Assembly: GCA_001803565.1 (NCBI GenBank)
Contig: MHDQ01000200.1
Coordinates: 1-6,569 of the forward strand
Source of the DNA: Nitrospinae bacterium RIFCSPLOWO2_12_FULL_45_22
Lineage (GTDB): Bacteria > 2-12-FULL-45-22
Length of the DNA stretch: 6,569 nt
Reading direction: 5' to 3'
This document shows, one piece after another, positions 88 through 6,569 of this stretch. The notes beneath the pieces are model-generated. The model did no database searches. It was not told the DNA's origin and worked only from the letters and a program-made list of their open reading frames with translations. Made by a program: the position numbers and the translations under genes. How positions within the stretch are numbered: the first letter of the stretch is position 1; each line of letters starts with the position of its first letter.

Positions 88-230
88 ATATAAATGTCTT
101 GATTTCCGGGCTTTTGTGGGAGGGAATACCCCACCGAATACTAGGGTTAGCCGAGAGAGGAACTATATCCATTTACACGACTATATCAATTTTAGAGGAG
201 ATGGAAGAGGTTCTTGTCCGACATAAATTA
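88..230 (+). pseudogene. Truncated PIN-family toxin (COG1569/TIGR00305-like), N-terminal third only
   Basis: The reading frame gives NVLISGLLWEGIPHRILGLA, then about 25 more residues ending EEMEEVLVRHKL. This is the usual start of 'putative toxin-antitoxin system toxin component, PIN family' proteins: beta-1 with DTNVLIS, a WxG loop, a helix, and the LEEmEEVL helix carrying the second acidic position. The family is normally about 130-145 residues; only about 48 remain. The initiator, the first strand and the catalytic Asp are missing: the DTN motif reads N-I-N (codons 87-95), with the break after base 87 falling inside the Asp codon. Similarity ends near 230, and the later acidic motifs (ADxxI, TxD) are absent. 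No antitoxin gene is seen. It is a dead remnant, not a functional toxin. TTG at 99 should not be read as a real start. Family assignment rests on recognised motifs, not a search. Confidence 0.7.
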
Positions 231-237
231 CGGACAA
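214..237. repeat. 7-bp perfect dyad TTGTCCG-N10-CGGACAA
   Basis: TTGTCCG at 214-220 and CGGACAA at 231-237 are perfect reverse complements separated by ten AT-rich bases, a geometry compatible with a dimeric helix-turn-helix repressor site. The left arm lies in the PIN remnant and the right arm begins where PIN similarity ends. It lies about 135 bp upstream of the operon's -35 box, far for a simple operator. Chance occurrence is possible. Confidence 0.35.
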
Positions 238-370: not shown

Positions 371-397
371 TTGACTTTCTCTGCTCGCAGATATAAT
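371..397 (+). promoter_or_regulatory. Sigma70-like promoter of the three-gene operon
   Basis: TTGACT at 371-376 (5 of 6 to consensus) and a perfect TATAAT at 392-397 are separated by 15 bp, two below the optimum, which would suit a weak or activator-dependent promoter. A start site near 404-405 would give a leader of about 47 bases before the ATG at 452. It is the only convincing promoter upstream of the operon. The leader contains several ATCAAA repeats. Confidence 0.6.
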
Positions 398-408
398 TTA
401 CTGCTAAA

Positions 409-438
409 ATCAAACTCCTATCAAAATCAAATATCAAA
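409..438. repeat. Four ATCAAA repeats in the operon leader
   Basis: ATCAAA occurs at 409-414, 420-425, 426-431 and 433-438, between the predicted transcription start and the ribosome-binding site of the first gene. The A-rich, G-poor leader should be unstructured, which favours ribosome loading. A role as a binding site for an RNA- or DNA-binding regulator is speculation. Confidence 0.3.
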
Positions 439-451
439 AGGATATAAGCTA

Positions 452-910
452 ATGGAACCCCAATTCCGTTTCTCTGTATGGCGTCCTGCACGGCTTATTC
501 GCACATTAGATTATCCTGTCAATACCTGTGGTGATGAAATTTTTGTGTTTGAACCTAATCGTCTTCAAGAGCAAATTTATATCTGGGATCCTGGACCTAA
601 CGATGTTTTTGCATCCCTTGATAAGGAGCTTGGAGATGAATTTCGACTTTTTCTGCTTGAGAAATTTGATCCCGGCTTGGCCCCTGAGGAGCGAAGTATC
701 GCTCTGTTAGGGGAAGCTGTCGGCGACTTGAACTCCAAACTGCAAAAAACCATGACAACTCCCTGGGCTGACTCCCAACAAACGGTCCTACAAGGTCAGA
801 ATGACGAAGTTAATCTTCGCGTCAACGTGCCCTTGGCATTATTGAATCACCTTTTATGGATAGCTAAGGTGTTTGGGCATGTGCCTCGCGCTTCGGTGAC
901 GGTCAGATGA
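452..910 (+). CDS. Unrecognised 152-aa protein, first gene of the PIN-ATPase operon
   Basis: I do not recognise this family. The protein starts MEPQFRFSVW and ends RASVTVR. It is soluble, with no signal peptide or membrane segment. Residues 1-50 are rich in aromatic residues and likely strands (FRFSVW, EIFVFEP, QIYIWDP); 54-72 and 78-100 look helical; 104-118 is a polar Q/D/N loop; 121-152 is a hydrophobic helix plus strand (VPLALLNHLLWIAKVFG, then ASVTV). No catalytic motif is obvious, so an adaptor, sensor or regulatory role is the natural guess. ATG at 452 is chosen because AAAGGA (437-442) sits 9 bp before it; the frame is open back to a TTG at 371, but that codon is the promoter's -35 box. 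The stop overlaps the next start as ATGA (907-910), which implies translational coupling with the PIN protein and probably controlled stoichiometry. Confidence 0.85.
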   Translation: MEPQFRFSVWRPARLIRTLDYPVNTCGDEIFVFEPNRLQEQIYIWDPGPNDVFASLDKELGDEFRLFLLEKFDPGLAPEERSIALLGEAVGDLNSKLQKTMTTPWADSQQTVLQGQNDEVNLRVNVPLALLNHLLWIAKVFGHVPRASVTVR

Positions 911-2997
911 GAGAGTTTTGTCTCCAGTCCCGACAGGATTCCGTAAAAACACTAGCCAACTTCTTTTTCAAAGCTGGGGAGGATACCTCATCCGACCGCA
1001 TAATGGCTATTCTAGAAGTAGGGGAGGGTATTTGTTTTAAGGAAGGGAGCTGGCTCTCAGTTGGAGAAATTGAATTGTATCCCGGAACTCCTGTGGCCGG
1101 AGATGAGAATCCTTATTCTCTGTTGGAACGCGCCCTGACCCTGGGCTCATACGATTGGAAACTACCTGAATTGGATAATATGCTGGATAGGGCAATTAAA
1201 ATCGTGGCCGACAAGGACATAGAGAAAAAGAGGAACAAGCTGACCAAGGTACTGGAGGGTGTGGCTCACGTAGCCCTGAGGTGCGGCTTTACACACCCTG
1301 TATTTGATGCAGAGTCCTTGTCCAACATGCCCTTCAAAAAACCCACGACTGTGGTGGCTGACACCAGTTCGGTTTTGCACGGGGGGCTAGATTTTGTTGT
1401 TCGCTTTCTTTATCCAGTGGCAAGAATAAAAATACCTGCTGTGGTCCATATGGAAATACTGAATATAGCTGATCGTTACTTTAACCAACGGCGTGACAAA
1501 AAAACGACTGTAGGTGCATTATTCGATCACATCAACAGCCAAGGGGGCCAAAGAGTTCTCTTGAGGCTTGAATTGCAGACGGATGCAGAAATTGAACGTC
1601 CAAGATTGGGATCTGATCCCTTGAGAGGCATAGTCCAGCCGGATACAGACCCGGAAGACAGGAGCCTCGGGCTTCAAAACGTACAGAGGAGTTTCGCGGA
1701 CAGGTTAATTCTGGAAACGGCGATTCAACATAGAGAAAGAGTGAGTTCCGATCACCCGGTAATGCTTTTGACATGCGATCAGGGGCTTGCGAGAATGACG
1801 TTAGGCGAGGGAATGCAGCCGTTATTTTTTGATAAAAACTATTGCTGTCATCTCTTTGGCACCGTTCTTACCGGAACCTGTTTCTGCCCTTTCTTGAGCT
1901 CTCCGAATTCGGATCGACTTTACTTCATACCTCTCATGGATTTGATCTGGGAACTGGCTGTAACCTATGGTTCTGCCCGCATTGTTAATAAAGATTGTAC
2001 TGCAACGTTTGAAGTTCGTGCGATTGGGAAAACGCTTTCCTGGAGTCCTTTTCACGCAAAAGACGATCTTTTATGGGTGAGATGGGATGGCTTCAACGCT
2101 GTTGAAAGATTGGCTGAACTTAAGCGAGAAGAAAGCGGAATCCTTGCGGAGCCCCTACGCCCCAGACCGGAAGAAAAGGCTGGAAAAAAAGATAAAGCGA
2201 GCCAAGATCAGAAGCCCTTGAAAGGTTCATACAAGTTCAGCTTACCTTCCATGCTTTCGCTAATTCAGGCATTCCTTGAAAAGCAGATGCTAACAAATGA
2301 GGAAGGAATCGCTATCGTTGGCGTTAAGACTCTCGATAGTTATGAGAAATATAGAAATTTTCTCCGATCAGGAGACTTCATAATACCGGCTAAGAAAGGA
2401 TTTGAAAAAACCGAGAAACTCGATAAGCTTTGGGAAACTATTCTACTGCGGGATTATCCTAGTTTGGAATTACTCCTAGCCGCTGTGCCTTCTTTTAGGA
2501 ACTTCAGGGAAGAGCTTATGAAGAACAAGCTCATAATTCGATCAAAAGTAGCATCTGTAGCAGACTCTCCCTTCTCGACCTATTGCGGATTAGCTGAAAT
2601 GGTTTGTATTGGATTGCAGATCCCAGAAGAAGGTCTCCGTGGCACTTTTGTTAGACCGACTTTAGAAGAATTTTCTAAAATTGCGGTGGATTGCTATGCG
2701 AAAATTGCCCAGGGGGAGGAATATATATTGACGGGCCAGTGGCTAGAGGCATTGGCGAGAGAATATGGCGTTCACCCTGTTCTGGCAAGAAGTAGGCTTG
2801 ATGAGGCCTACCAAGCCGGATATCTTCAAAGATATACGGAAGGGTCTACGCCCGAAACCCAATTCGAGAAGCACATAATGACTTATCTTAATGTTGAAAA
2901 GGGTATCCCAGTTATCGAAAGAATCAATTTATACCATGGCGATTTTATTTTGCCCGATAGAACCAGTGTTAGTATTAGAATAATTCAAGGAAGATAA
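907..2997 (+). CDS. Large multidomain PIN-domain protein (696 aa), probable metal-dependent ribonuclease
   Basis: Residues of about 147-310 form a PIN domain with a full acidic set: D152 in VVADTSSVLHGG, E183 in PAVVHMEILNIADRYF, D265 in SFADRLILETAI, and D291 in LLTCDQGLA. PIN domains are Mg/Mn-dependent single-strand ribonucleases, so an active RNase is predicted. The rest is not recognised: residues 1-146 are mixed, with a helical part at 85-130; 335-395 is a strand-rich module just after PIN (LYFIPLMDLIWELAV); 415-440 is a charged Lys/Glu linker; 441-600 is mostly helical; 605-660 resembles a winged helix (TGQWLEALAREYGVHPVLARSRLDEAYQAGYL). The length is several times that of VapC-type toxins (about 130-150 aa), and no small antitoxin is paired, so this is not an ordinary toxin-antitoxin toxin. 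The start is fixed by the ATGA overlap with gene 1. The stop TAA is followed directly by the ATPase start. Inferred role: effector or processing nuclease controlled by the neighbouring ATPase. Confidence 0.88.
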   Translation: MREFCLQSRQDSVKTLANFFFKAGEDTSSDRIMAILEVGEGICFKEGSWLSVGEIELYPGTPVAGDENPYSLLERALTLGSYDWKLPELDNMLDRAIKIVADKDIEKKRNKLTKVLEGVAHVALRCGFTHPVFDAESLSNMPFKKPTTVVADTSSVLHGGLDFVVRFLYPVARIKIPAVVHMEILNIADRYFNQRRDKKTTVGALFDHINSQGGQRVLLRLELQTDAEIERPRLGSDPLRGIVQPDTDPEDRSLGLQNVQRSFADRLILETAIQHRERVSSDHPVMLLTCDQGLARMTLGEGMQPLFFDKNYCCHLFGTVLTGTCFCPFLSSPNSDRLYFIPLMDLIWELAVTYGSARIVNKDCTATFEVRAIGKTLSWSPFHAKDDLLWVRWDGFNAVERLAELKREESGILAEPLRPRPEEKAGKKDKASQDQKPLKGSYKFSLPSMLSLIQAFLEKQMLTNEEGIAIVGVKTLDSYEKYRNFLRSGDFIIPAKKGFEKTEKLDKLWETILLRDYPSLELLLAAVPSFRNFREELMKNKLIIRSKVASVADSPFSTYCGLAEMVCIGLQIPEEGLRGTFVRPTLEEFSKIAVDCYAKIAQGEEYILTGQWLEALAREYGVHPVLARSRLDEAYQAGYLQRYTEGSTPETQFEKHIMTYLNVEKGIPVIERINLYHGDFILPDRTSVSIRIIQGR

Positions 2998-4149
2998 ATG
3001 AGCCTTAAGGACAGAATACGTAAGAAAGGGGCTGGAGAGTCAGAACATCAGACGGCGCTGTTCAATAAGTTTGGGGTGGTTGAGAATCCCTTTCCGGCTG
3101 CTGGACAGCCATCCGGACACCCACGTTTGGAAAATGATGTCGATGAGAAAGTTGGCTTTGACATTCAGGAATTCGAAACCTCTCACAAGACTCAAATTTT
3201 AGTGATAGAAGGCTCTCAAGGGGTAGGCAAGACGAACCTCTTAAACTACTACCAGAATGAACTAGAGGACCTATATCAAGATGACAAAACTTGTTACATA
3301 ATCCGGTACTATCCAGACCCAGAACCGAGTTTTGACGCAATTATCCGCAAGGTTTTTCAGGAACTGGGGGAGAATCACCTGCGCGGAATGGCGCGGAAAT
3401 TGAGTAATCTTAGCCGCGACGAGAAGTCGGGTATAATTGATACTGCAAAGAATCAAGAATTGCGCCTTGTTTTACACAAACTAGCTAAAAGTGCGGAGAG
3501 TGGTGACGCTGATTTGGAGACGACTTCGGAAACAGCCATGGAATGGCTTTTAGGCCTGCGAGTTCTGAATAAGCATAAGGTGCTAGGTGTAAGATTTCGG
3601 CTCGACACAGTAGAATCGAAGACTCAGGTGCTGCGTGATGTGGTTTACGTAAGTGTCAAACTCGGAATCTTACGCGGAGTTTTTCTTTTGTTAGATGAAC
3701 TCGAGAAACAGGACTATTCACTTAGTACTACCCCCGTTGTCCGGTACTTGTCAGCTATTCGTGCTTTGATAGATGCCTTGCCAACCCACCTTTTTCTCAT
3801 GACGGCCCTAACTCCTGATGCGCGTCTTCGATATTTCAAGATGTTACCAGCCATAGCAGGTAGATTACAAAATGTCTACACCCTTTCCTCCCTGAAGGAT
3901 GAAAAAGACGGCCTTTCTCTCTACAGCCTTTATCGCGATAAAGCACGGGAAAGCGCTCAGTTAAGGCTGAAGGTTAGTTCGAAGGGCGTAAAGCTTAATG
4001 ACATTATTGACCGGGAGGAAATCGTTAAGCTCTTTAAAGAACTGTTGCAGAAATCGGCCCAGAAAGGTATCCAAGGCGTAACTCAACGTGATTTTCTTAA
4101 TGAGCTTTACTTGCGGACTCAAGATCGGTTCAAAACCATACAGATATAA
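2998..4149 (+). CDS. AAA+/ORC-Cdc6-like P-loop ATPase (383 aa)
   Basis: Motifs in order: an N-terminal NPFPAAGQPSGHPRL segment (30-44) of the 'NPF' type seen before the core of several ORC/ExeA-like ATPases; Walker A GSQGVGKT (72-79) after strand QILVIE; Walker B VFLLLDELE (228-236, D233/E234); a sensor-1 strand HLFLMTALTPD (264-274); and a box VII-like LPAIAGRLQNVYTLSSL (283-299) with R289 a candidate arginine finger. Residues 300-383 are helical and may form a winged-helix tail. The roughly 150 residues between Walker A and B form a long helical insert. ATP hydrolysis is well supported; the exact subfamily is not. It recalls DUF2791/BrxD-type or ORC-like ATPases of defence loci, but only at motif level. 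The start ATG abuts the previous stop, with AGGA at 2988-2991 giving 6-bp spacing. Coupling to the PIN protein suggests an ATP-driven switch or loader for that nuclease. Confidence 0.88.
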   Translation: MSLKDRIRKKGAGESEHQTALFNKFGVVENPFPAAGQPSGHPRLENDVDEKVGFDIQEFETSHKTQILVIEGSQGVGKTNLLNYYQNELEDLYQDDKTCYIIRYYPDPEPSFDAIIRKVFQELGENHLRGMARKLSNLSRDEKSGIIDTAKNQELRLVLHKLAKSAESGDADLETTSETAMEWLLGLRVLNKHKVLGVRFRLDTVESKTQVLRDVVYVSVKLGILRGVFLLLDELEKQDYSLSTTPVVRYLSAIRALIDALPTHLFLMTALTPDARLRYFKMLPAIAGRLQNVYTLSSLKDEKDGLSLYSLYRDKARESAQLRLKVSSKGVKLNDIIDREEIVKLFKELLQKSAQKGIQGVTQRDFLNELYLRTQDRFKTIQI

Positions 4150-4167
4150 GAAAATACATCATCCGGG

Positions 4168-4187
4168 CCTCTTTTTCTCAAGAGAGG
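4168..4187 (+). terminator. Hairpin just after the operon, possible transcript end
   Basis: Arms 4168-4175 (CCTCTTTT) and 4180-4187 (AAGAGAGG) pair over 8 bp with one G-U wobble and a 4-base loop, beginning 18 bp after the ATPase stop. No T-tract follows, so it is not a canonical intrinsic terminator; it could stabilise the 3' end or be Rho-associated. The remaining spacer up to 4365 has no gene; it contains only a weak 5-bp stem (4271-4286) and an isolated T8 run at 4296-4303. Confidence 0.35.
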
Positions 4188-4365
4188 ATAGACTGCCTGC
4201 CAGGCTAATCCATCATTAAAGTGGTAATAAGCGACAAGATTTTATCATAGAATCTGAAGACTTGTAGGTGCTATCTGTTATGGTAGTATAATAAGTTTTT
4301 TTTAAGGAAAAGATTACTGAGTCCCTAGTGGAGAATCTCCTTTGCTGGCCTCATTCTGGTTTCCA

Positions 4366-5082
4366 TTAATCCCCTCTCAATTGACTCATAGGTCTCCTGT
4401 TGTTTAGTTCGTCTTCTATCGTAGGCGTGCCTGTTGATTTGTAGGTGGTGTGTCTGTCAAGATATAGGCTCATAGGTACCCCGTATTCCTTGATATATTG
4501 CTTGAAACTGTCCATAGCAGGTATTGTGCCTTCGTATTCGTAAAATCGGGCAAATACTCTGTTTGTGGCATCATCTATATACGCCATCAGCACAAGTTCA
4601 TCACCTCTTCCCTCCAGCCAGTCATGATGCGAGCCATCCATCTGAACCATCTCTCCTAAGTAATCTCTTCTCTCCCGCCATTGTCTATGTGCCCTAACTT
4701 TGCGAACCTTCTTCCAATCTCCAGATTCTGTAAGCCAGTTCCGTAATGTCTCTCTGCTTATCTTAACCCCCTCTATCTCCAAAAGCTTCTCTGCTGCCAG
4801 CGTTGGCCCAAAACCTTTGTACTTTTCCCGGTAAAGTTTTATCACCTTCGCCTTTACCTTTCTGGGAAATTTCCTGCTTGAAGGCGTGCCCCTGGATTTA
4901 TGTAGGACCCCTCTATCACCCTCAATCCTTACCCTCTTTATTATCCTCCTTACCTGCCGATCACTTAATGAAAGTATCTCCACTGCTTCTACCTGCTTTA
5001 ATACACCATCCAGCACCTTCTTAATTACGTGTAACCGCTTTAATTTCCTCTGACTTACCACGATAATGTCCTTTCTCGCCAT
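4366..5082 (-). pseudogene. ISNCY (IS1202-like) family transposase, C-terminally truncated (238 aa)
   Basis: An N-terminal helix-turn-helix (residues about 29-52, VEILSLSDRQVRRIIKRV) and a second DNA-binding segment (GFGPTLAAEKLLEIEGVKISRETLRNWL) are followed by an rve/RNase H-type core: MVQMDGSHHDWLEGRG with D149, LVLMAYIDDATNRVFARF, and SLYLDRHTTYKS with D209. Intact relatives continue after '..PMSQFERA' to the SPQAKGRxER segment with the catalytic Glu and total over 400 residues. Here the frame ends MSQLRGD, the third DDE residue is missing, and the element cannot transpose by itself. One missing T near 4380 would restore MSQFER, so a frameshift may have preceded the loss of the 3' part. 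ATG at 5082 is preferred over ATG at 5130 because GGGAGGGG (5085-5092) and a TATAAT at 5108-5113 lie just upstream. Confidence 0.85.
4890..4976. repeat. 87-bp perfect direct repeat, right copy
   Basis: Identical to window positions 1-87, in the same orientation, offset 4889 bp. It covers the helix-turn-helix coding part of the transposase. The two copies bracket the PIN remnant and the whole three-gene operon. Recombination between them would delete 4889 bp, including the entire operon. Confidence 0.95.
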
Positions 5083-5107
5083 AATCCCCTCCCTTGAACT
5101 GGAGAGA

Positions 5108-5136
5108 ATTATAACTTTGCCATAGGACATTTCTAA
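5108..5136 (-). promoter_or_regulatory. Promoter of the ISNCY transposase
   Basis: On the minus strand a perfect TATAAT (5113-5108) lies 17 bp downstream of a poor -35, TTAGAA (5136-5131). A start near 5101 would leave a leader of about 20 bases containing GGGAGGGG before the ATG at 5082. The -35 overlaps the first copy of a tandem GGACATT repeat, so transposase binding there could repress its own expression (inference). Confidence 0.5.
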
Positions 5137-5315: not shown

Positions 5316-5576
5316 TTGGACATTATTCTAGAGCAAGATAAGTGGCGAAAGCTTATCGCGCTAGAAGTAAGGAAAGATAAGGGGGAGAGCAAGCTCTCTT
5401 TGGAGATCAATCAGGATAGGCTAAAGTCTTTGGAGAAGAGGATGGGAAAAAACATCCTCTTTACCGATAGAGACCATTGGAGCACTGATGAGATAGTCTC
5501 TGCCTATAGGGGCAAATACAGGATAGAGGATGCCTTCAAACTAATGAACCATAGTTCATTAGCTCAACAATATTGA
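5316..5576 (+). pseudogene. C-terminal fragment of an IS4-superfamily (IS1634-like) DDE transposase
   Basis: The frame carries IALEVRKDKGESKLSLEINQ, then GKNILFTDRDHWSTDEIVSAYRGKYRIEDAFKLM, the region around the catalytic Glu of IS1634-like transposases. In the YREK signature, Y64 and E71 are present, R is replaced by K67, and the final K is lost: position 78 is Asn, exactly where family similarity ends and a foreign tail NHSSLAQQY begins. The first two catalytic Asp residues and several hundred N-terminal residues are missing, as is the usual C-terminal part (typically FRPMxHWTDQKIRVH). Both ends are broken and no terminal repeats are visible. It is on the opposite strand to the ISNCY transposase and unrelated to it, so it records a separate insertion. 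The TTG at 5316 is only the first possible start in an open frame, with no credible ribosome site. Confidence 0.7.
5541..5562. repeat. 9-bp perfect inverted repeat at the IS1634-like fragment breakpoint
   Basis: CTAATGAAC (5541-5549) and GTTCATTAG (5554-5562) are exact reverse complements with a 4-base loop. The left arm is still transposase coding sequence (codons for L-M-N), and the right arm lies just past the break. The structure is AT-rich and is not followed by a T-tract, so it is not a convincing terminator. It may be a scar of a fold-back or inversion event, or a weak hairpin ahead of the dehydratase gene. Confidence 0.5.
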
Positions 5577-5660
5577 TTTTACAAGAAATTGCTATAACTT
5601 TATGTTTACCAATCTATAGGTGAATTATTGCTGAACAAAAGCAAGGAGGTAATAAGGATA

Positions 5661-6569
5661 ATGATTGCAGAATTTAAAGAGATATTTGCTAACCGTTATT
5701 CTATTGCCAGGACCAGGAAAGGTTTGGGGCAAAAAGTAATAGGGTGGGTTTGTACTTTTGTGCCAGAGGAGATCATCTATGCCGCTGGTATGTTCCCCTT
5801 CAGGGTGGTAGGGGGCGCAAATACCGAGACCCCGTTAGCTAATGCCTATCTCTATTCTAATAACTGTTCCTTCTCCCGTCAGTGTCTGGAAGAAGGTTTG
5901 AATAAGAACCTGGACTTTTTGGATGGCTTTGTAACTGCTAATTCCTGTGACCATATCAGGCGCTTATTCGATGTCTGGCTCAAGTACTTCCCTACCCCTT
6001 ATAAGAAGATTCTGAGTACCCCATGTAAGGTAACGGAGTCGGCCATTGCCCATTTTTGGGAAGAATTAGTCACCTTTAAGGAGGAATTAGAGACCATAGT
6101 AGACAGAGGGATAGGGGAGGATTGTCTCTGGCAGGCCATTGACCTGTATAATGAAACCCGTCAGCTATTTCTGAAACTTTATGCGCTTCGGAAGAACGAG
6201 CGGCTTCCTATCTCGGGCCGGGAGGTAGCTGAGATAGTACGGGCTGCCTGGTACTTACCCCGGGAAGAATACAATAATCTCTTGAGTAACACATTGTCCT
6301 GGTTAGAAAAACGGGAGCCTGTCTTGGATAATGATTCTGTGCGAGTGATGGTTGTGGGCAGTGAGCTGGATAACCCGGAATATATTGGGATAATAGAAGA
6401 CCTAGGGGGTGCAGTAGTGGCAGATGACCTTTGTTGTGGTTCCCGTTATTGCTGGACCCCAGTAGAAAAAGGTGAAGACCCTTTACGGGCCTTAGCTACC
6501 CGTTACCTTTCCCGTCCCTTCTGTGCCCGGATGCATCCCGCTTCTCACCGGATGGCGCATCTCCGGAAG
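5661..6569 (+). CDS. 2-hydroxyacyl-CoA dehydratase / benzoyl-CoA reductase family subunit, 3' end outside window
   Basis: The first 303 codons are open to the window edge; family members run about 370-430 residues. Recognisable blocks: WVCTFVPEEIIYAAGMFPFRVVGG (29-52), the N-terminal signature of HgdB/HgdC- and BcrB/BcrC-type subunits; NNCSFSRQC with C69; ANSCDHIRRLFDVW with C96; STPCKVTES with C122; and VADDLCCGSRY with C258/C259. C69, C96 and a Cys of the 258/259 pair match the expected [4Fe-4S] cluster ligands. Such subunits pair with a paralogue and receive an electron from an ATP-dependent activator (HgdA/BcrA-D type), for syn-dehydration of 2-hydroxyacyl-CoA or ring reduction in the cytoplasm of strict anaerobes. 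The substrate cannot be told. ATG at 5661 is chosen for AAGGAGGT at 5643-5650, 10 bp upstream; TTG at 5628 is a weaker alternative. No strong promoter is visible between 5577 and 5660. The partner subunit and activator would be to the right. Confidence 0.88.
   Translation, partial: MIAEFKEIFANRYSIARTRKGLGQKVIGWVCTFVPEEIIYAAGMFPFRVVGGANTETPLANAYLYSNNCSFSRQCLEEGLNKNLDFLDGFVTANSCDHIRRLFDVWLKYFPTPYKKILSTPCKVTESAIAHFWEELVTFKEELETIVDRGIGEDCLWQAIDLYNETRQLFLKLYALRKNERLPISGREVAEIVRAAWYLPREEYNNLLSNTLSWLEKREPVLDNDSVRVMVVGSELDNPEYIGIIEDLGGAVVADDLCCGSRYCWTPVEKGEDPLRALATRYLSRPFCARMHPASHRMAHLRK

Follow-up and report, generated by a model that had tools for sequence, protein, structure and literature searches.

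In this work we describe a compact three-gene operon, carried on a contig of a Nitrospinae MAG, in which a gene for a small orphan protein is followed by genes for a large PIN-domain protein and a predicted ORC/Cdc6-like AAA+ ATPase. With slightly better than even confidence, we read this trio as a rare, horizontally moving cassette of defence type, in which the ATPase would restrain and license the PIN nuclease. A defence function is likely, and the trio is best called an unnamed cassette among the known ATPase-plus-nuclease conflict systems. The original prediction had held the set to be undescribed, and this stands against PADLOC 2023, Pfam, NCBIfam, PHROGs and the published literature searched, in which no named system matches the trio.

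Operon layout and genomic setting

The window, by which we mean the whole 6,569-nucleotide stretch analysed here, is one entire contig (C200) of a 3.67-Mb MAG that is 85% complete. All three genes lie on the forward strand, encoding the small protein P0001 (152 aa, 452-910), the large PIN protein P0002 (696 aa, 907-2997) and the ATPase P0003 (383 aa, 2998-4149). The proposed coupling of the genes is borne out by their ORF coordinates, the start of P0002 lying over the stop of P0001 in a 4-nt ATGA overlap (907-910) and P0002 meeting P0003 at a zero-base TAA/ATG junction (2997/2998). The two large reading frames are not due to chance, since none of 200 shuffles of the window gave an open frame longer than 219 codons, compared with 696 and 383 here. 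Of the signals suggested to frame the operon, the shared promoter is plausible but weak: a forward-strand TTGACT/TATAAT pair (371-376 and 392-397) matches at 11 of 12 bases, but its 15-nt spacer falls outside the 16-18 nt range of our promoter scan, which did not call it. The closing hairpin (4150-4190, forward strand) is unsupported as a terminator, with a fold z of 0.27, equally good folding in 115 of 200 shuffles and no terminator call at that place.

The surroundings of the trio had been described as broken throughout, which is correct for a PIN_3 (VapC-like) toxin gene fragment in the upstream flank (about 93-236, forward strand, E 7e-4), a truncated ISNCY transposase downstream (4366-5130, reverse strand) and an IS1634 remnant (5316-5576), but not for an HGD-D dehydratase/benzoyl-CoA-reductase-like gene that begins at 5628 and stays open to the contig end. 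Apart from the toxin remnant, no defence genes are visible in the window outside the trio. The left edge of the contig is probably an assembly break at a repeat, because its first 87 bases (1-87) repeat a stretch of the internal transposase (4890-4976) exactly.

Predicted roles of the three proteins

Identification of P0002 as a PIN nuclease, put forward in the original prediction, is supported by the fold of residues 141-315 (1327-1851, forward strand), as compared by VIA-align and Foldseek using an AlphaFold model of low confidence (pLDDT 33.6). This region matches PIN-superfamily structures with VIA-align Z scores of 8-10.8, the best being 3i8o (Z 10.8), followed by RNA-free RNase P, Rrp44/Dis3, VapC and SMG6, and the structural matches also include an archaeal RuvB-like PIN ATPase (5f4h/5yww). 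The Pfam PIN profile gave an E value of 0.23, under threshold, and PDB sequence searches returned nothing useful. The acidic residues characteristic of PIN domains (D152, E183, D265 and D291) are all present in P0002, with D152 and D291, like K78 of the ATPase Walker A motif, at the positions previously given; E183, the second canonical acid, stands opposite Thr in the alignment with the rhizobial proteins described below, by which three of the four acids are conserved. On the strength of the modelled fold we assign P0002 to the PIN superfamily, and consider it a probable RNA-cutting nuclease. Its helical C-terminal region (residues 439-696; 2221-2994, forward strand) is collinear with the rhizobial homologues and could be a contact surface for the ATPase or for nucleic acid. 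We also considered whether the C-terminal half of P0002 corresponds to the ~300-aa partner of haloarchaeal ATPases, and rejected this as profile tests did not rise above shuffles.

P0003 carries an NPFP motif, a Walker A motif GSQGVGKT (K78) and a Walker B motif LLLDE (D233/E234), and matches AAA_22 (E 1.8e-6) and the PADLOC mad8 model (E 5e-5); the latter is taken as general ATPase kinship because no other Mad protein matched. Its best named sequence matches are haloarchaeal 'BREX system ATP-binding' proteins (23-25% identity, E 7e-6 to 3e-5), which lie in 7-deazaguanine clusters and match both BrxD and SngB models, while P0003 itself does not reach the PADLOC SngB model. The rhizobial ATPase is 27% identical over 197 aa to a Nonomuraea SngB (E 5e-182) whose Shango locus is complete, and the rhizobial ATPases match PF10923 at E 3e-4 to 6e-4, below cut-off. 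Four alphaproteobacterial genomes gave weak, partial matches to the ATPase profile (E 8e-6 to 8e-4). The Walker motifs and homology to group members support the proposed AAA+/ORC-like identity, and on sequence grounds we place P0003 among the ORC/Cdc6-like AAA+ ATPases of the BrxD/SngB/Mad8 group. ATPases of this group are paired with a helicase in Shango (PMC10250203) and in type-2 BREX, where BrxD has been suggested to act as a helicase loader (PMC12839542), and the coupling of Orc/Cdc6 ATPases to nucleases and DNA-binding proteins is a recurring anti-invader theme (PMC10853773). That relatives of the ATPase sit in anti-phage or DNA-modification loci speaks for defence.

P0001 belongs to no known family in Pfam, NCBIfam and PADLOC searches, its best PHROGs match has an E value of 0.22, and its AF2 model is uninformative (pLDDT 36). 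Despite occupying the same operon position, it resembles neither first-gene protein of the rhizobia in pairwise and profile tests, and homology of the small proteins between the two clades was dropped as a proposal. P0001 is probably an accessory protein, sensor or regulator, and the first gene is the fastest-evolving of the trio when the two rhizobial loci are compared.

Rhizobial counterparts and a mobile carrier

Two further trio loci were identified, on plasmid pT173c of Ensifer canadensis and in Neorhizobium huautlense, with proteins ~24% identical to those of the window. As the original prediction anticipated for a genuine system, all three genes are adjacent in both, in the same order and with coupled or overlapping ends, and neither locus is a housekeeping one. 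The Ensifer trio encodes proteins of 126 and 662 aa and a 402-aa ATPase, joined by 4-nt overlaps. It first surfaced as a weak plasmid match (E 0.04), and was accepted only on the combined agreement of gene order and of pairwise statistics for two of the three proteins. The PIN proteins (P0009 and P0012 being the homologues of P0002) are homologous, with a BLAST E of 5e-9 over 371 columns between window and Ensifer (z 15.3, 0 of 300 shuffles); the alignment of their C-terminal halves is weaker (z 4.5 with Ensifer and 2.4 with Neorhizobium). The ATPases are likewise homologous (BLAST E 1e-6 for window and Ensifer, z 21-23, HMM E 5.5e-9). The Neorhizobium locus was found through a genome scan with the Ensifer PIN protein (80% identity), as the sole match in 397 Hyphomicrobiales and 398 Pseudomonadota genomes, both samples including it by construction. 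Scanning the genomes of 84,980 species with P0002 as single query, a search that reaches close relatives only, gave no relative; BLAST or profile searches among 145, 386 and 317 of the MAG's relatives recovered only the MAG itself; a plasmid search with the window PIN or small protein gave no significant match; and no relative was found in the viral contigs and phage records scanned. The family is thus rare, with three loci in total within the samples searched; a set this small, with two members so closely related, offers slender ground for defining it.

The Neorhizobium trio lies inside a 9,693-bp element bounded by two copies of CTTGAAAACCGG and encoding NikA/MobC, a MobA/VirD2-type relaxase and a tyrosine integrase, which is an integrative mobilizable element. 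The 3' half of a tRNA-Ser lies in its left arm, and the element splits a DksA/TraR-like gene that is uninterrupted, as an empty site, in two related genomes. An alternative att repeat, TTCTGCAACAATGCTGCAAC, was discarded in favour of the core CTTGAAAACCGG in view of the tRNA-Ser arm and the interrupted DksA-like gene. Another Neorhizobium genome contains a 7,649-bp sister element with the same core and an integrase 73.5% identical, and beside that integrase, in place of the trio, it carries genes for 164-aa and 242-aa proteins with weak AbiEi-like and PD-T7-3-like matches; the trio therefore behaves like exchangeable cargo.

In Ensifer, the trio adjoins genes for an SNF2 helicase, a DUF1156 methylase and a DUF499 ATPase, with matches to HmaA (E 7e-94), HmaB (E 1e-34) and HmaC (E 1e-4), resembling the BREX-related DUF499 systems of PMC12839542. 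The position of the Neorhizobium trio as mobile-element cargo and of the Ensifer trio beside Hma-like genes speaks for defence; against it, element cargo could equally be a maintenance module. Also counting against it are the small number of loci, the window's lack of visible defence genes other than the toxin remnant, the absence of homology between the small proteins of the two clades, the Thr opposite E183 and the low confidence of the structure model. The two rhizobial loci are close relatives of each other, their trio proteins being 75, 82 and 88% identical for genes 1, 2 and 3, with respective dN/dS of 0.11-0.16, 0.06-0.07 and 0.03-0.06 at a dS near saturation, and the trio genes are under strong purifying selection. 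MobC, the relaxase and the gene that separates the relaxase from the trio share just 43-54% identity between the loci (45-51% for relaxase and MobC), and these three are partly broken in Ensifer, where the trio is intact. The trio is retained while its carrier element decays, a pattern that also speaks for the defence reading.

Known systems, competing readings and a candidate mechanism

Comparison with named systems helps to place the trio. Shango, comprising SngA (TerB), SngB (ATPase) and SngC (helicase), shares the ATPase group and the form of a compact three-gene operon, but where Shango has a TerB protein and a helicase, the trio has a small orphan protein and a PIN nuclease: no SngA match was obtained for the trio proteins in PADLOC, and neither the window nor the Neorhizobium element contains an ORF for a DEAD/DEAH helicase of SngC type. 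More generally, PADLOC 2.0.0 models gave no match to the PIN and small proteins at E values up to 10. Type-2 BREX likewise couples a standalone BrxD-like ATPase to the gene of a nucleic-acid enzyme, in the BrxD-BrxHI pair (PMC12839542), but the partner in the trio is the PIN protein, and no part of the BREX core (BrxC, PglX methylase, PglZ or BrxHI) occurs in the window. The PIN effector would take the place of the helicase that accompanies this ATPase in Shango and type-2 BREX. The haloarchaeal 7-deazaguanine (Dpd-like) clusters supply the closest named matches of P0003, but differ in that their neighbours are tRNA-guanine transglycosylase-type genes and in their ~300-aa partner, which has no detectable relation to the PIN protein. 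For PIN effectors in defence, the excerpted account of DefensePredictor describes DS-3 and DS-5, which need their catalytic residues; these are one- and two-protein systems for which that excerpt reports no ORC-like ATPase (PMC13092281). The same work shows that PIN nucleases lacking a classical antitoxin can defend, which speaks for the defence reading. Hachiman HamAB offers an analogy only: in an excerpt of PMC12278908 an ATP-driven, DNA-surveying partner restrains a nuclease, but the components are a helicase and the HamA nuclease, compared with AAA+ and PIN proteins here.

Several other readings of the trio can be weighed against a defence cassette. VapC-type PIN toxins are classical antitoxin-controlled RNases, and the trio could be an addiction or stabilisation module in which the PIN protein is the toxin and the small protein, perhaps with the ATPase, its antidote, so that loss of the element kills the cell. 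The small gene lies upstream of the PIN gene and is translationally coupled to it, the rhizobial trios are near relaxase and, in one case, integrase genes, and the window trio is beside a VapC-like remnant. We nevertheless consider this reading unlikely: the PIN fold is shared with VapBC, but the PIN protein (660-700 aa) is much larger and the ATPase (383-402 aa) is an extra component, sizes that far exceed VapBC parts and argue against membership of that family. In addition, the sister element is without the trio and has other cargo, and the Ensifer trio is intact though its mobility genes are degraded.

ORC/Cdc6-like ATPases act on DNA, and a ring of P0003 might instead load invading DNA with the PIN protein, which would act there as a structure-specific or flap nuclease and destroy that DNA without suicide of the cell. 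The suggested role of BrxD as a helicase loader (PMC12839542) and the RuvB-like PIN ATPase among the structural matches are in keeping with this. The top structural matches are mostly RNases, though fold shows no function, and no modification gene is present that would mark self DNA; we regard such DNA interference as unlikely. Most doubtful is the proposal that the trio belongs to the machinery with which the element replicates, transfers or maintains itself, or to an operon for host RNA processing, and is not for defence. ORC-like ATPases do also serve as initiators and loaders, and both rhizobial trios lie beside mobilisation genes. However, the sister element with its related integrase is without the trio, the Ensifer trio persists by Hma/BREX-related genes with its mobility genes degraded, and samples of 317-398 genomes contain no further copy of the trio, unlike housekeeping genes.

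Returning to the defence cassette, our fuller and more tentative proposal, which we place a little short of even, is that the trio is a system against phages or plasmids not described before: a BrxD/SngB-type ORC ATPase would gate the large PIN nuclease, the rapidly replaced first gene would encode the sensor, and integrative mobilizable elements would spread the set at very low frequency across distant phyla. In the mechanism that we consider most likely for the cassette, the ATPase probably assembles as a ring or complex on DNA and would restrain or position the PIN nuclease, while foreign or replicating DNA would trigger ATP-dependent activation of the PIN domain. The activated domain would then cut RNA and stop infection, perhaps with loss of the cell, and the small, fast-evolving first-gene protein probably supplies sensing or regulation. 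If this is true, the ATPase of the BrxD/SngB group is a portable module able to drive either a helicase or a PIN nuclease, and its role in BREX and Shango would become easier to clarify; a cassette of three genes is small enough for that role to be tested directly. The integrase-side site of the Neorhizobium element is, moreover, a defined place in which to seek more such cargo.

Rhizobial elements and their insertion sites

The integrative mobilizable element that carries the trio in Neorhizobium huautlense is complete at 9.7 kb (L008:4790-14482) and is inserted in a DksA/TraR-like gene, which is apparently a secondary site for this element, with the core CTTGAAAACCGG in common; the element also bears the 3' half of a tRNA-Ser. 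Its sister in another Neorhizobium genome (L031:2297-9945; 73.5% integrase identity) terminates at tRNA-Ser sequence and has, adjoining the integrase, a different two-gene cargo encoding proteins of 164 aa and 242 aa, with weak matches to AbiEi and PD-T7-3, respectively. A 197-aa gene of no assigned family occupies the interval between relaxase and trio in N. huautlense (L008:8916-9509), with a split counterpart in the Ensifer locus and a weak one in the sister element.

Haloarchaeal relatives of the ATPase

Haloarchaeal plasmids (L005, L006, L011, L012 and L013) have in common an operon encoding a tRNA-guanine transglycosylase, an unannotated protein of ~300 aa and a BrxD-like ATPase.

Ends of the window contig

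The contig starts with an ISNCY transposase segment (1-87) repeated exactly over 87 bp at 4890-4976, a pattern typical of an assembly break. At the other end, a 2-hydroxyglutaryl-CoA dehydratase/benzoyl-CoA reductase-like gene (5628-6569; HGD-D, E 6e-67) runs open off the contig.
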